Shown here: in pieces, positions 678-8,536 of the stretch
Numbering within the stretch: the first letter of the stretch is position 1
How the letters are laid out: each line of letters starts with the position of its first letter
From: Clostridiales bacterium
GTDB lineage: Bacteria > Bacillota > Clostridia > Christensenellales > Borkfalkiaceae
Assembly: GCA_015069485.1 (NCBI GenBank)
Contig: SVIM01000020.1
Location: 1-33,767, forward strand
Direction of reading: 5' to 3'
DNA: 33,767 nt
Notes under the pieces: model-generated
Told to the model about the DNA's origin: nothing
The model's database searches: none
What the model saw: the letters and a program-made list of their open reading frames with translations, nothing else
Translations under genes and position numbers: made by a program

Positions 678-706
678 TTGAATACTTAAAAAATATGTGA
701 TATAAT
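678..706 (+). promoter_or_regulatory. Sigma-A promoter of the Y-like RNA
   Basis: TTGAAT (678-683), a 17-nt spacer and a consensus TATAAT (701-706). Transcription would start at about 711-714, at the first base of the closing helix of the RNA. The spacing and the coincidence of start site and helix argue that the RNA is made from its own promoter. From 556 to 677 I see no gene, only A/T-rich sequence with a weak hairpin near 608-630. Confidence 0.8.
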
Positions 707-712
707 TAATTC

Positions 713-857
713 GTAGCGGACAGCTATACGGGTTTACTTCAATCTAAAGGTCGAAGCCGGAGGTTGAAGGTTCAACTCCTTCCGCCCTTTGGGCGTGGCT
801 CAACTGGAAGAGCGCCGGCATTTATATAATTCGTAAATTTCGTCCGCTATATTTTTT
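713..857 (+). ncRNA. YrlA-like bacterial Y RNA: permuted tRNA mimic
   Basis: The sequence folds as a tRNA in permuted order. Anticodon-stem strand GCCGG (756-760), 5-nt variable loop (761-765), T stem GAAGG/CCTTC (766-770/778-782) with canonical T loop TTCAACT, acceptor strand CGCCC (783-787), a TTT loop (788-790), acceptor strand GGGCG (791-795), T796 and G797 as positions 8 and 9, D stem GCTC/GAGC (798-801/810-813) with D loop AACTGGAA containing the GG pair, G814 as position 26, then CCGGC (815-819) closing the anticodon stem. Instead of an anticodon loop, the strands run into helices 731-737/833-839 and 713-721/842-850, separated by a 9-nt bulge (722-730), then T852-857. This helix-bulge-helix plus tRNA-like module is the published plan of bacterial Y RNAs. 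It is not a functional tRNA: there is no anticodon loop and no free acceptor end. Confidence 0.88.
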
Positions 858-865
858 AGGTTATT

Positions 866-2944
866 ATGAAAGATTTATTTATAAATTACTTATTTACAAA
901 GCATTATTTTGTAAGCGATACGGCCACAGACGAGGAACACTCGTTTGAGGCTTTATTTGCATTAGCCCAAAATTTTAACATTAAAATCGTAAAGGGGCAA
1001 AGCCTTGCAAGCATATCTCACCTTAAGGTTGCCGAAAACGGACTTGGCTATAAAGTACCCGATTCCTTTTATAAAAACTTCCCCGATTCAGTTTGGAATC
1101 TTATTCAAAGGCATAGGGCAACGGGTGTAAATTTGTTGCTTTACGACCAAGTTATTCATTATGTAATGACCTACGGCTTGCGTGATTTTAGCAACCCCGG
1201 CTATTCCGTTTTTGAAGAGGACTTTGAAAAAATTGCCTTTAAGGAAGAAACCCCTATAAAGGAATTTTCCGTTTTAACTGAAGAAGAAGCGGTTAAAATT
1301 TTATCCGAGTACGCGGACGACCTTTTAAACAGTACCCGTCCCTTAAACTGCGAGCAGTTCGATTTGCTTTTAAATTTTATATTAGATTACGGCTACGAGG
1401 TGCGCTATTGCGCAAGCAAAAATACGGCTATTAAGCTTATTTTAAGCACGAAAAATGCAGAGCTTTCAAAATTTATTTCCCTTGCCGATATTATTGCTTT
1501 GGTGGACGAGCTTAATTTTAAAACCTATAAAAACAGGCAAATTAACAAGCTTAATTTAAAAAACGAGCACCGTAAGCTAATTGCAAAATTTTTAGATAAA
1601 AAGTTAAGCGGTAACTGCGCCGATATTAGTCAATGCTTTGAAAAGCAGGCAATATGGCAGGGGCTTTTGCATCATATTCACTACAAGCCCACCACGGAGC
1701 TCGGCAAAAGTTTCGTAAAGCAAATTAGGGAAGGTAAAAATATTTCCGCCTATTCCGCCTTTGAACGCGCTATGCAAAAGGGCGATATTAACGGGGCGGT
1801 AAATACCCTTTTAAGCGAAAAGGGCTCGGGCGCGCTTCTTCGCAATTTAAATTATATTCTTTCCCGCTGTCAAACTGATGAACAAGTAAACTTCGTTTTA
1901 AATAATCTTCAAACTAATAACCCTTTAATTTTAATTCAACTTTTATACAGCTATAAAAATTACGATGGCAGAAGGCGTAGGGCTTTTACCTTCGCCAAGC
2001 ATAATTTGCTGTGCTTGCACGAAGAAACTGCCGAAGAAAAGAAAAAGCGTAAATCGGTAATCCTTAAAAAAAGGCGCACACAAATTGCCAAAATTCTTTT
2101 GCAAAATTTAAAAAATATTTACAAAAATAAGCTTGGCAAGGTTTTTATTGACGCTGGTATGGAAAACTTTGCTCTCCCCTTAGAAGAATCGACCTCTTCA
2201 ACCGGCTACGGCACGCTTGCAAAGGGCTCGAAAATTAATATGGAGCAAGGCAAAAAAATCAGGGCGTTTACTTATTGGGAAAAGGTTAACGATATCGATT
2301 TAAGCATTATCGGCTTAGATAAAAAAGGCAACCAAACGGAATTTTCTTGGCGTAACATTTCAACTGTTTCGGCAGAGCAAAAGCACGACGCTATCGCCTT
2401 TTCCGGCGACCAAACCTCCGGCTACAACGGCGGTTCAGAATTTTTTGATATTCAAGTAGAAAATTTTATAAAGGAATTCCCCGATATTCGCTATTTGGTA
2501 TTTTGCAACAACGTCTATTCGGGCACGCCGTTTAGTAACTGTATTTGCAAGGCGGGCTATATGCTTAGGGATATTGACGAAAGCGGTATGGTTTTCGAGC
2601 CTAAAACGGTTAAAACCTCGTTTACTATTAACTGCGAAAGCACCTTTGCTTATCTGTTTGCGTTCGACCTTAAAAAAAGTCAATTTATTTGGCTTAATAT
2701 TACGGGCGATAGCAAAAACAGAATTGCAGGCACTTCAAGCATAAGGTTCGTAATGGAAAATTTTACCGCAACCGAAGTTATAAATTTGTCTTCGCTTTTT
2801 AAAATGATGGCAACCAAGGTTGTAAAAACGCCTGAAGAAGCCGATATAATCCTTTCCGATAACGATATACCCGTTTCAAGCAGTCAGCAAATTATTCGTA
2901 GCTACGACTTTGAAAAAATATTAGCGTTAATTAATAATAATTAA
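866..2944 (+). CDS. Helical-repeat protein with C-terminal TerD-like domain
   Basis: 692 residues. Residues 1 to about 400 look all-helical and carry a block (AYSAFERAMQKGDINGAVNTLL, then GALLRNLNYIL) reminiscent both of helical modules in actinobacterial TerD-fused proteins and, weakly, of the TROVE fold. A basic linker (RRRR..., KKKRK..., about 370-405) follows. From about 460 to 640 it resembles TerD: DIDLS near 476, FSGD near 511, GGSEFFDI near 522, and VFEPKTVKTSF. TerD domains bind calcium and belong to stress systems; the role of this fusion is unknown. No VWA domain is present, unlike Ro60/Rsr, and no other ter genes are in the window. ATG 866 lies 8 nt after the T run of the Y-like RNA, with a weak AGG ribosome site (858-860). 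Because of this neighbour I infer RNA binding; that is not shown by the sequence. The gene is alone between two terminators. Confidence 0.72.
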   Translation: MKDLFINYLFTKHYFVSDTATDEEHSFEALFALAQNFNIKIVKGQSLASISHLKVAENGLGYKVPDSFYKNFPDSVWNLIQRHRATGVNLLLYDQVIHYVMTYGLRDFSNPGYSVFEEDFEKIAFKEETPIKEFSVLTEEEAVKILSEYADDLLNSTRPLNCEQFDLLLNFILDYGYEVRYCASKNTAIKLILSTKNAELSKFISLADIIALVDELNFKTYKNRQINKLNLKNEHRKLIAKFLDKKLSGNCADISQCFEKQAIWQGLLHHIHYKPTTELGKSFVKQIREGKNISAYSAFERAMQKGDINGAVNTLLSEKGSGALLRNLNYILSRCQTDEQVNFVLNNLQTNNPLILIQLLYSYKNYDGRRRRAFTFAKHNLLCLHEETAEEKKKRKSVILKKRRTQIAKILLQNLKNIYKNKLGKVFIDAGMENFALPLEESTSSTGYGTLAKGSKINMEQGKKIRAFTYWEKVNDIDLSIIGLDKKGNQTEFSWRNISTVSAEQKHDAIAFSGDQTSGYNGGSEFFDIQVENFIKEFPDIRYLVFCNNVYSGTPFSNCICKAGYMLRDIDESGMVFEPKTVKTSFTINCESTFAYLFAFDLKKSQFIWLNITGDSKNRIAGTSSIRFVMENFTATEVINLSSLFKMMATKVVKTPEEADIILSDNDIPVSSSQQIIRSYDFEKILALINNN

Positions 2945-3588: not shown

Positions 3589-5247
<1,659 letters not shown>

Positions 5248-5400: not shown

Positions 5401-6345
5401 GTGTATCCTCACGCAGTAATAACTATTTTCGGCCAGGGTATATACCTATACGGTATATGTATGGCGTTGGGACTAATAACCTGCTTCGTCTTTTTAATGA
5501 AGGCGTTTCAAAAACAAAATTTTAACGATAATTCTATCGACGTAATTTTGTTAGTAGGCATCTTCGGCGTTGTGCTCGGTTTATTTTCGGCAATGCTTTT
5601 CCAGTCTATTTACGATTTTATCGCAAACCCCGAAGCAGGCTTTAAGCTTGGCGGAATGACCTTCTTGGGCGGATTAATCGGTGGTGTCGTTGGCTATCTT
5701 GCAGTATATTGGCTTTACATTTATGTAATTGCGCCCCGCACAAAAATTAAGTGGTTGCAAAACAATATGAACGCCGGCATAACCGACGCTCTTCCCATAA
5801 TCCCCGTAGGCATAGTGCTTGCGCACGCGTTTGGCAGACTCGGTTGCTTTTTTGCAGGCTGTTGCCACGGCGCGCAAACGGACGCTTGGTACGGTATCGA
5901 TTTCCCCAGCATAGCAGGTACGGCAAAATATATTCCTACACAGCTTTTCGAGTGTATTTTCCTATTGCTTTTGGCGTTTATAATGATAGTGCTTTTTTAT
6001 AAGTACAAATTCAACTGCAACTTTGGCGTTTACTGCATTGGTTACGGCATATGGCGCTTCTTAATTGAATATATCCGCGACGACTACCGTGGCGAATTAG
6101 TGCCCGGCTTAACCCCCTCGCAGTTCTGGTGCATACTTATGGTTGCGCTTGGAATAGGTTATTTCTTCCTTTATAAGTACTTGTTTAAGGATAAAATGAA
6201 GCACCCCGAGCTTCAGCCCTCGGTTTACAAAAAGGCAACGGCAAACGGTGCTTCTCAAGAGAAGGTGGAAGAGGTAATTAGCCAAGAAGTTCAAGTAAAC
6301 AGCCAAGAGATGGAAGTAACCAACCAAGAGGTTGAAGGCGAATAA
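5401..6345 (+). CDS. lgt: Prolipoprotein diacylglyceryl transferase (Lgt family)
   Basis: Polytopic membrane enzyme that moves a diacylglyceryl group from phosphatidylglycerol to the lipobox cysteine of prolipoproteins. 314 residues with about seven hydrophobic segments. The Lgt signature is HAFGRLGCFFAGCC (about 142-155), with the key Arg at 146; a second conserved block is YGIWRFLIEYIRDD. The segment that usually reads F-H-G-G or F-Y-G-G reads FLGG (about 88-91), so the position of the E. coli His103 is a Leu here. The last 40 residues are a hydrophilic Glu/Gln-rich tail with a repeated SQEV/NQEV motif, beyond the usual end of the family. The start is GTG 5401, chosen for AAAGGAG at 5387-5393. 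It is alone between two terminators. I am fairly sure of the family; full activity is not certain. Confidence 0.85.
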   Translation: MYPHAVITIFGQGIYLYGICMALGLITCFVFLMKAFQKQNFNDNSIDVILLVGIFGVVLGLFSAMLFQSIYDFIANPEAGFKLGGMTFLGGLIGGVVGYLAVYWLYIYVIAPRTKIKWLQNNMNAGITDALPIIPVGIVLAHAFGRLGCFFAGCCHGAQTDAWYGIDFPSIAGTAKYIPTQLFECIFLLLLAFIMIVLFYKYKFNCNFGVYCIGYGIWRFLIEYIRDDYRGELVPGLTPSQFWCILMVALGIGYFFLYKYLFKDKMKHPELQPSVYKKATANGASQEKVEEVISQEVQVNSQEMEVTNQEVEGE

Positions 6346-6382
6346 TCTAAAAAACAGTAAAACTAAATACGGTTTAACTAAC

Positions 6383-6413
6383 GCGCCGAGCAGGCTTAAA
6401 ACCTGCTCGGCGC
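6383..6413. terminator. 12-bp perfect hairpin after lgt
   Basis: GCGCCGAGCAGG (6383-6394) and its exact complement (6402-6413) flank a 7-nt loop. Only AACTTTA follows, so the T run is poor; it is still the likely end of the lgt transcript. Confidence 0.6.
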
Positions 6414-6439
6414 AACTTTATATATTGCGTAAACGCTTT

Positions 6440-6469
6440 GGTATAACTTATTAAAAATTTCACATACTT
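6440..6469 (+). promoter_or_regulatory. Putative sigma-G/F promoter of spoVT
   Basis: GGTATA (6440-6445), a 17-nt spacer and CATACTT (6463-6469) fit the forespore sigma consensus. Transcription would start near 6476, about 17 nt ahead of the spoVT ribosome site. In B. subtilis spoVT is transcribed by sigma-G. Confidence 0.5.
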
Positions 6470-6503
6470 TACCTTGCAATGTAAAATTTGTTAAGGAGAA
6501 AAT

Positions 6504-7049
6504 ATGAAAGCAACTGGAATAGTTAGAAGAATAGACGAGCTTGGCAGAGTAGTAATCCCCAAGGAAATTAGAAACACTTTAAGGTTAAAATCGGGCGATC
6601 CGTTAGAAATTTTTACCGAGAGGGACGAGCTTATGCTAAAAAAATATTCACCGATAGCGTCTTTAGAACAGTTTTCTGAAGGAACGGCAAAAAGCTTAAG
6701 CGATATATCGGGGCATCTTGCGTTAATTTGCGATACGGACGGCGTTTTATACGCTTCAGGCAACGGCAAGCGTAATCTTTACGGCAAGGCTCTTTCTAAA
6801 AAAATGGAACAAATTTTAGAAGGCAGAAAAAGTTATATCGCCAACCTTGCCGAAGGCGGTGATATCGTTCCCATATGCGAAAACACCGAAAACGATATAA
6901 CTGCGCAAATAATAGTGCCTATCGTTAGCGGTGGCGACTGCTTGGGCGCGGTGGCGTTAATTTCTACCGAGCAAGGCGCAAAAATCGAATCAACTATCGC
7001 TAAGCTTGCCCAGCTTTCGGCAACCATATTAGCAACTCAATTCGATTAA
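6504..7049 (+). CDS. spoVT: Stage V sporulation protein T
   Basis: Forespore transcription regulator that tunes the sigma-G regulon, with activating and repressing effects in B. subtilis. 181 residues, the normal SpoVT length. Residues 1-52 form an AbrB/SpoVT swapped-hairpin DNA-binding domain (ATGIVRRIDELGRVVIPKEI is very typical). Residues about 55-178 form the GAF-like domain, with a GDCLGAVALIS core strand near the C-terminus. ATG 6504 follows AAGGAG (6493-6498) at a good distance. A sigma-G-like promoter lies upstream. The order spoVT, flippase, mazG matches the B. subtilis spoVT-yabM-yabN neighbourhood, which strengthens all three calls. Confidence 0.96.
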   Translation: MKATGIVRRIDELGRVVIPKEIRNTLRLKSGDPLEIFTERDELMLKKYSPIASLEQFSEGTAKSLSDISGHLALICDTDGVLYASGNGKRNLYGKALSKKMEQILEGRKSYIANLAEGGDIVPICENTENDITAQIIVPIVSGGDCLGAVALISTEQGAKIESTIAKLAQLSATILATQFD

Positions 7050-7056
7050 TTTTTTA

Positions 7057-7170
7057 AAAAAGCGTATAAGCGTCGCAATTACCGTAGCACGGCAAAAGCC
7101 TAAAACAGTTTTAAAAATAAGTAAGCGTTTAAGGTTTTCGTGCGCAATTTTGCCCGCTTCTACGCTTTTT
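7057..7170 (+). other. Structured 114-nt intergenic element
   Basis: A 16-nt inverted repeat with a single mismatch (7057-7072 and 7155-7170) encloses a second nested set of pairings: GCACG, AAAA and CCT on the left with AGG, TTTT and CGTGC on the right (about 7087-7101 and 7131-7145). The distal end is a T run that ends 7 nt before the next start codon. It could be an RNA leader hairpin, an unusual terminator, or a MITE-like remnant. I cannot decide between these. Confidence 0.5.
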
Positions 7171-7177
7171 ATTACAT

Positions 7178-8536
7178 ATGTTTAAGGGCAAGCAATCGTA
7201 TTTAATGGGTGCAATAATAATTTCTGCAGGCGGCTTCGTTTGCAAAATTATAGGCGCTATGTACAGAATTCCTTTAACCGCGCTATTAGGTGGCGAGGGT
7301 ATGGGCATTTACCAAATGGTGTACCCGTTATATTGCATTTTGCTAACCGTTTCCGCATCAGGTATTCCAACGGGTATTGCTCGCTTGGTTGCTTCGGGCA
7401 ACGGCGAAGGGGCAGAAAAAAAGGCGTTTTTAATTTACGGCTCAATAGGCGTTTTAGGCTCTTTACTAATGTTTGCCTTTTCGGGCGCGCTGGCATCCAT
7501 TATGGGGGAAGAAGCCGTAAAAAGCTGTTGTCGCGCTCTTTCGCCCGCGGTATTTTTCGTGTCTGTTTTATCCGTCGTAAGGGGATATTTTCAAGGTAAA
7601 AGCAACATGGTCCCCACCGCCGTTTCTGAGGTAACGGAGCAAATTATTAAGGTGGGCTTGGGTTGCCTTTTAGCCTATATTTTCAAAAATAATTTAACCC
7701 TAGCAGTCGCATCCACCCTATTTGCCGTAACCGTGGCGGAATTAGTTACGGCAACCTTTGCAATTATCGCTTATTTAAGGCATAATAAGGGGGGAATAAG
7801 CAAAAATTCGCAAAAAACCCCACCTGCAAAAAGCATATTAAAATATACGATTCCGCTAACCTTAACGGCAATGGCAATGCCCCTTTCACAGTTTGCTGAA
7901 AGCGCCGTTGCTATTCGCCTTTTAAGGCAAATAACGCAGGAAGCAACCGCGCTATTCGGCATATTTTCAGGGTGCGCAATAACGATAATAAATTTACCCG
8001 TTTCAATAAGCTACGGGCTTGCGGCGGCAAGCGTACCGCAAATTGCGCCCTTCGTTTCAAGCGGTCAAATAAAAAAGGCAAAACGCCTTGCCTATAAGGC
8101 GCTTTTATTCACCCTTGCAATTTCCTTACCCTGCGCAATCGCCCTTTATTTTTTTGCGCCGTTCGCGGTGGAAATAATTTTTAAAAGCCTGCCCCCTTCG
8201 CAAAAGCAAACGCTTATTTATTTAGTAAAAATAATGTCGCAAAACGCAGTAACCTCTTCGCTCGTGCAAACCTCGTCAGCGTGCTTAACGGCGTTGGGAA
8301 AGCCGTTAAAAAACGCCGTAACGCAATGGGGGGTGTGTATTTTAAGGGTTATTTTAACGGCGGTTTTAATTAAATTTACAACTCTTTCGGTGGTAGGTGC
8401 GGCAATCTCGGCAAACTGCTGTTATTTGGTTGCAGTAATTTTAAATTTTTGCTATATTATTAAAGAAGGAGCAAAAAATGAAAATTACGCTTATAGGTCT
8501 GGGCACAGACGAAAACGATTTAACCTTAAAGGGTAA
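7178..8536 (+). CDS. SpoVB/YabM-like lipid II or polysaccharide flippase
   Basis: Integral membrane protein of the MOP exporter superfamily (MATE-like fold; SpoVB/MurJ/RfbX relatives), expected to flip lipid-linked cell-wall or cortex precursors across the membrane. 452 residues with 12 or more hydrophobic segments. The N-terminus (GAIIISAGGFVCKIIGAMYRIPLTALLG, shortened here to key parts: GGFVCKIIGAMYRIP) and GIYQMVYPLY are typical of SpoVB. Its place between spoVT and mazG matches B. subtilis YabM. No Shine-Dalgarno is visible before ATG 7178; the structured element above ends 7 nt upstream. Its 3' end overlaps mazG by 59 bp, suggesting translational coupling. It could serve as SpoVB, YabM or a MurJ substitute. 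Confidence 0.85.
   Translation: MFKGKQSYLMGAIIISAGGFVCKIIGAMYRIPLTALLGGEGMGIYQMVYPLYCILLTVSASGIPTGIARLVASGNGEGAEKKAFLIYGSIGVLGSLLMFAFSGALASIMGEEAVKSCCRALSPAVFFVSVLSVVRGYFQGKSNMVPTAVSEVTEQIIKVGLGCLLAYIFKNNLTLAVASTLFAVTVAELVTATFAIIAYLRHNKGGISKNSQKTPPAKSILKYTIPLTLTAMAMPLSQFAESAVAIRLLRQITQEATALFGIFSGCAITIINLPVSISYGLAAASVPQIAPFVSSGQIKKAKRLAYKALLFTLAISLPCAIALYFFAPFAVEIIFKSLPPSQKQTLIYLVKIMSQNAVTSSLVQTSSACLTALGKPLKNAVTQWGVCILRVILTAVLIKFTTLSVVGAAISANCCYLVAVILNFCYIIKEGAKNENYAYRSGHRRKRFNLKG

Follow-up and report, generated by a model that had tools for sequence, protein, structure and literature searches.

The question raised by contig SVIM01000020.1 of a Clostridiales bacterium (assembly GCA_015069485.1; Christensenellales, Borkfalkiaceae), which we analysed over its whole 33,767 nucleotides and call the window, is what a tRNA-like segment at positions 713-857 is, and what it does beside the gene that follows it. 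An earlier note, made from the sequence alone, had read the segment as a circularly permuted tRNA mimic of the YrlA group of bacterial Y RNAs. Our covariance-model and comparative data support a permuted tRNA mimic of YrlA architecture. Beyond that first reading, the conserved unit is a two-stem AGCUA/UACUUC module, of which the tRNA-like part is one interchangeable head. The RNA is probably a Y-RNA-type scaffold, whose two-stem base would dock the neighbouring Ro60-like/TerD protein and whose head would engage a partner in RNA damage or repair. The features of the locus are as follows.

678..706, plus strand: possible sigma-70-type promoter, TTGAAT-17-TATAAT (consensus scan, 10/12)
713..857, plus strand: Y-RNA-like small RNA with a permuted tRNA-like head and a U-tail (YrlA model, RNAfold, covariation in 30 copies)
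714..721, plus strand: stem1, 5' strand, partner 842-849 (sequence, RNAfold, pairing script, covariation)
722..726, plus strand: AGCUA, 5' side of the internal loop, common to other copies (its invariance is partly by construction, the copies having been collected with a pattern that holds GCTA)
727..734, plus strand: stem2, 5' strand, 8 bp, partner 828-835 (pairing script, covariation)
735..740, plus strand: UACUUC following stem2, exact in 100 of 135 copies (the search pattern itself demanded TA[CT]T[TC])
756..819, plus strand: permuted tRNA-like domain with anticodon-stem stub, variable region, T arm, capped acceptor hairpin, U8/9, D arm and position 26 (sequence, RNAfold, YrlA model, covariation)
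783..795, plus strand: acceptor hairpin, CGCCC 783-787 with GGGCG 791-795, UUU cap, no free 3' end and no CCA (sequence; five pairs with double changes)
836..841, plus strand: AAUUUC, 3' side of the internal loop (most frequent forms among the copies, GAUAUC and AAUAUC)
842..849, plus strand: stem1, 3' strand (sequence, RNAfold, covariation)
852..857, plus strand: T6 run 3' of stem1, possible RNA end (sequence)
866..2944, plus strand: 692-aa partner protein, with a candidate Ro60/TROVE-like ring at ~128-442 and a TerD fold at ~457-629 by predicted structure (NF041916, 96.7 bits)

The head can be followed arm by arm. An anticodon-stem stub (GCCGG 756-760 paired with CCGGC 815-819) leads into a 5-nt variable region (AGGTT, 761-765) and a T arm (766-782) with the loop TTCAACT at 771-777. 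After the capped acceptor hairpin, T796 and G797 occupy the place of U8/9, the D arm (798-813) carries the loop AACTGGAA with GG at 806-807, and G814 is the equivalent of position 26. All of the tRNA hallmarks listed in the earlier note can be read in the sequence, and the permuted arm order with its TTT-closed acceptor was confirmed by the RNAfold minimum-energy structure, which holds all named helices (-47.5 kcal/mol compared with a shuffle mean of -37.9; z -2.60; an equally good fold in 2 of 200 shuffles). ARAGORN found no tRNA in the window, showing that the segment is not a contiguous tRNA with an anticodon and does escape a tRNA finder, as had been foreseen. The ends of the RNA, which would be about 145 nt long if they lie at 713 and 857, are less clear. 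The proposed promoter is present, but 1.5 sites of that quality are expected in shuffles; therefore, the match lends the claim little weight. Likewise, the T run of the proposed U-tail is present, but an intrinsic-terminator scan (loop limit 8) reported none, and the basal stem with T6 looks terminator-like by eye only.

We then compared the locus with its relatives. The set comprised the best 80 of 120 relatives of the partner gene from a genome-contig scan and nine from viral contigs, giving 89 loci (numbered with L) plus the window; because it contains the near-duplicate pairs L096/L097 and L102/L103, counts over loci are not fully independent. Scanning these 90 loci with a module pattern gave 154 matches in the orientation of the gene and 4 in the opposite one, compared with 12.7 in total in shuffled sequence; most of the matches lay no more than 600 nt before the gene. 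With a pairing script we could resolve 173 copies; 144 were close to the gene, and 143 of these 144 had an 8-bp stem2. The copy set had been selected for pairing, GCTA, and TA[CT]T[TC], a choice that itself shapes the pairing rates and motif letters; covariation was therefore tested on alignments made from such copies with MAFFT, for which slid and shuffled versions served as controls. Alignments A3 and A6 had rows from the window and 50 of the 89 loci, hand-picked against redundancy and split or truncated frames. In the short alignment, A4 (54 of 88 short copies), 86.7% of cells pair versus 34-48% in slid controls, with 274 double-changed cells versus 94.5 in shuffles.

The long alignment, A5, held 30 of 35 long copies (L016, L045, L069, L071, and L099 were omitted). 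Over 33 pairs, 95.0% of cells pair in the 30 head-bearing copies, the window's included, versus 36-44% when slid. Double changes affect 28 pairs and each of the six helices, amounting to 214 cells compared with 59.3 in shuffled and 24-46 in slid versions. The compensatory changes that the note had wished to see in related loci are thus far beyond chance. None of the 30 aligned heads has an anticodon loop. The tRNA-like part is not a constant of the family: under a strict pattern, 27 of the 89 loci have permuted-tRNA heads, 30 in all, a further nine heads have a T arm only, and the remaining heads are hairpins or plain loops.

The heads vary further. Those with a T arm only (L017:4900-4984, L018:3932-4012, and seven more copies) resemble a half-way tRNA mimic. 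Read by eye, the heads of L043 and L093 have D-arm letters typical of leucine tRNAs, and L043:4831-4977 has a long variable arm with a leucine-type look; most heads resemble tRNAs with a short variable arm. Some heads therefore look like different tRNA classes, judged from their sequences.

A covariance model, R1, built from the 54 short-headed copies, matched 106 times, in 72 of the 89 loci and always in the orientation of the gene; 47 of the matches were training copies and 59 were not, and 7 of the 54 training copies were missed at E 0.05. R1 detects modules in L006 and L007, two of ten further homolog loci from the order, scores 11.9 bits (E 0.65) on the window itself, and gave matches in 4 of 26 sources among other loci, one of them weak. 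By pattern or R1, 79 of the 89 loci contain a module. Of the ten loci without one, four offer no more than 2 nt of sequence before the gene, and in the other six (L036, L053, L054, L068, L072, and L094) the module is absent. Across 396 genomes of the order, the pattern search gave 56 module places in 48 genomes, and a backward-pattern control was similarly large (~68), indicating that the pattern is at background outside the gene's loci; no excess of modules without the protein gene was seen in these genomes, in a test that is not sensitive.

Is the RNA, then, a YrlA? No Rfam family reached its gathering score on the window. In a permissive search of 560-900 against 4227 families, YrlA (RF02553) came top, at 740-843 with 34.2 bits and E 6.3e-6, and no family outscored it. 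The design claimed in the earlier note is borne out by this rank and by covariation in all tRNA arms, but the gathering score of 69 bits was missed, which qualifies the YrlA reading. Matches inside the segment to the L31 leader (E 0.034), tRNA (0.16), and trypanosome large-subunit rRNA (0.62), all below gathering, were judged to be chance, and the tRNA model RF00005 scored 19.2 bits on the segment, below 29. Among ten further homolog loci of the same order, YrlA-type matches of 34.8, 46.6, and 38.1 bits were obtained in L003, L005, and L012, and none in L002. A match of 27.4 bits in L008 was discarded as overlapping a true tRNA gene, and we disregarded a match of 23.6 bits (E 0.79) in L006.

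Two parts define YrlA, a basal stem that carries Rsr and a tRNA-like domain that carries PNPase (PMC8394870, in the part available to us). The window RNA shares with it a basal stem formed from both ends, an internal loop, and a second stem, followed by a permuted tRNA domain in which a T arm, a capped acceptor, and a D arm succeed one another; its length falls within 90-150 nt. Its T- and D-loop bases are present, and it may be a substrate of DusA and TruB. In contrast, the basal consensus AGCUA/UACUUC/RAUAUC differs from that of Rfam, several kinds of head, the tRNA-like one among them, are interchangeable on this base and often stand in tandem arrays, and the protein encoded beside the RNA cannot be recognised as a Ro60.

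The TROVE family is the usual means of recognising bacterial Ro60/Y RNA particles, and Ro60 carries a C-terminal VWA domain. The partner protein has a predicted helical ring (~residues 128-442) whose best structural matches are Ro60, which, together with the linkage to a Y-like RNA and a few homologs lying by RtcB, rtcR, or tRNA genes, likens it to Ro60/Rsr. It differs in lacking a sequence-level TROVE match and in having, in its predicted structure, a TerD fold (~residues 457-629) instead of the VWA domain, which it lacks. TROVE (PF05731) gave no match to the window protein at E 10 and none in 10 members at E 1, and hhalign against four TROVE proteins gave 0.3%. No Pfam family matched the 692 residues at E 0.001 (in a search to E 10, the best E was 0.0098, short of the cut-off), and Foldseek on its own found nothing in the PDB at E 0.001. 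The TerD Pfam family was absent among matches up to E 10, and only weak PDB profile matches (E 0.93 and 1.7) were seen. A canonical Ro60 as neighbour was rejected, having no support in Pfam, PDB sequence, or profile searches.

At the sequence level, the partner is homologous over residues 295-617 to NCBIfam NF041916, the MXAN_6230/SCO0854 family RING domain-containing protein (96.7 bits, E 1.1e-27), and is not a member by the curated cut-off of 600. All 10 members scanned match this profile. The matched part is profile 389-710 of 842, without the N-terminal region, and the family title names no RNA partner. A partial literature search found no mention of SCO0854 or MXAN_6230 and no paper joining the TerD-type family to Y RNAs, which is no proof of novelty. 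In four viral contigs, two of them near-identical (L101-L104, ~6001-8156), the partner protein is split at ~residue 343-363 into two overlapping frames, perhaps a split gene or a programmed frameshift.

A scaffold fits a constant module beside a Ro60-like gene combined with variable heads. The two-stem base (stem1, the AGCUA/RAUAUC internal loop, the 8-bp stem2, and UACUUC) would be the docking site for the Ro60-like ring/TerD protein. The distal head would present a tRNA elbow to a third party. Fitting partners for an elbow that lacks an anticodon would be enzymes that act on tRNA or nucleases that attack it: an enzyme that binds or modifies tRNA, PNPase or another nuclease, or an effector that damages tRNA. 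The ribonucleoprotein (RNP) may serve to tether this partner or to gate it when RNA is damaged or repaired, as has been proposed for Ro60-YrlA.

The neighbourhoods of a few homologs bear on the function. RtcB open reading frames occur in 4 of the 89 loci; in L017, the last sense codon of RtcB ends at 4759 and the first module begins at 4764, and in L020, RtcB genes flank the protein gene on both sides within 1 kb. On a Variovorax plasmid, three small genes separate the homolog from an oppositely oriented rtcR ~1.3 kb away. That of Rhodococcus phage Weasels2 is beside tRNA genes with RtcB ~3 kb downstream, and those of Rhodobacter and Ruegeria phages are among tRNA genes, near a nucleotidyltransferase. 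In the window's genome, RtcB is on another contig. The grouping of a Ro-type protein, a Y RNA, and RtcB in L017 and L020 recalls the Salmonella rsr-yrlBA-rtcBA operon (PMC7790460, seen in part), from which it differs in the protein family and in that RtcB is adjacent in few loci. The accessible part of PMC7824862 sees in the TROVE proteins of jumbo phages a platform for RNA repair that has a tRNA-like partner. The Rsr and Y RNAs carried by phages can be likened to the TerD-type group by description only: Listeria phage CKA15 is proposed to have an Rsr-like protein, with abundant non-coding RNAs nearby, and Y RNAs (PMC12282133, in part), and the same excerpt cites Chen 2014 for mycobacteriophage Y RNAs.

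The strongest rival, possible though we think it unlikely, is that the head is an uncleavable tRNA stand-in that titrates or senses tRNA-targeting enzymes of phages or toxins, with the TerD-type protein as effector, in defence or counter-defence. The lack of an anticodon loop and the apparently different tRNA types of the heads across loci suit such a bait, and the YrlA tRNA-like domain was proposed as a competitive inhibitor of anticodon nuclease (PMC7790460, same excerpt). So does the patchy distribution, homologs being found in 3 of 61 relatives, 11 of 396 genomes of the order, and, by profile search, 3 of 391 genomes of the class, own genome included each time. The best 80 of 120 relatives are mostly titled Lachnospiraceae or Clostridia, with few from Oscillospiraceae, Eubacterium, Coriobacteriia, and planctomycetes. 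Homologs also occur in viral contigs, and tblastn found distant ones in 9 phage records (two being second entries of the same phage) and 22 plasmid records; two viral scans with phage homologs as query gave 1 and 0 loci. However, many copies have no tRNA head, and PADLOC, run on the window protein and 10 members, gave no model for the former and one weak match among the latter. No widely shared neighbour is fit to be an effector either, each of the other neighbour families (14 largest clusters) occurring in at most 9 of the 89 loci at differing positions.

We give somewhat less credence to a cis-acting leader, a 5'-UTR element that regulates the downstream gene by autoregulation or attenuation and has no function in trans. 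The RNA is immediately upstream of the partner, the T run ending 8 nt before its ATG, and 76 of the 89 loci have a module at most 700 nt upstream of the gene. Yet 51 of these have at least two copies, often with different heads (L104 has six), and a leader has no need of a tRNA head. Three loci place the module elsewhere, downstream of the gene in L042 (7130-7264) and L046 (7111-7185) and ~2.5 kb upstream of it in L032 (2449-2516), which argues against a pure leader role.

Improbable, in our judgement, is an ordinary RF02553 RNA that serves a standard Ro60 and PNPase beside an unrelated gene: architecture and best Rfam match agree with it, but the score is below gathering, no TROVE family protein was found in the window's genome (97% complete), the linkage to the TerD-type protein is conserved, and the short modules of L033, L034, L069, and L073 have no Rfam match. 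A decayed or rearranged tRNA gene without function, suggested by tRNA-like arms lacking an anticodon, can practically be dismissed given the compensatory changes in all six helices and the absence of any recent copy, the window head seeming not to derive by copying from any own tRNA compared (best, tRNA-His, 31/61; 31 sequences from the loci of 30 of 36 tRNA places).

An extension of the RNA-gene pairing beyond close homologs is likely, though not established. Two-stem hairpins of the same plan, several in tandem, lie upstream of distant homologs on four Streptomyces plasmids (L123, L125, L126, and L127) and a Deinococcus plasmid (L128), and in mycobacteriophage WXIN and a viral relative (L115 and L124), Lactobacillus phage LpeD (L113), and two alphaproteobacterial phages (L114 and L117). 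We scanned 14 upstream regions against 12 shuffles each, using an apical motif that we had picked by eye once the sequences had been read. Seven regions (L113, L115, L117, L124, L125, L126, and L128) had more hairpins than any of their 12 shuffles, four (L114, L120, L123, and L127) did not, and three (L116, L119, and L121) had none. For L123 and L127, we rely on the conservation of one hairpin, at one place, in four of five Streptomyces loci, the fifth being L120. In seven mycobacteriophage copies, a small sample, 100% of cells pair and six are double-changed. The alphaproteobacterial phage genes have upstream YrlA-type matches below gathering.

The RNA and its gene appear to be kin, so far overlooked, to the Ro60/Y RNA particles, which deal with damaged RNA. 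Whether they represent a second Ro60-like RNP class in several bacterial phyla and phages, in which SCO0854/TerD proteins stand by arrays of Y-like RNAs with one docking module and interchangeable heads (tRNA mimics of several types among them) that have scaffold or decoy roles in RNA damage and in conflict with phages, seems to us evenly balanced. If TerD-type proteins are cryptic Ro60 counterparts and have Y RNAs of their own, such RNPs would be more widespread than the TROVE family shows, with a notable spread in gut and rumen Clostridia and large phages. An RNA context would also be gained for the TerD domain, for which the part of PMC7824862 at hand suggests no more than a possible ligand-sensing role. 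The interchangeable heads would offer a natural series for testing the purpose of the tRNA mimic, which the portion of PMC7790460 consulted leaves open for YrlA.

Two minor observations concern the surroundings of these genes. In Rhodobacter phage RcXuper (L114:2153-2455) and Ruegeria phage RpAliso (L117:1646-1867), a permuted tmRNA (RF04321, above gathering) sits upstream of the Y-like hairpins and the TerD-type gene. In the window, the sporulation regulator gene spoIIID (307-555) is directly upstream of the RNA and its partner gene.
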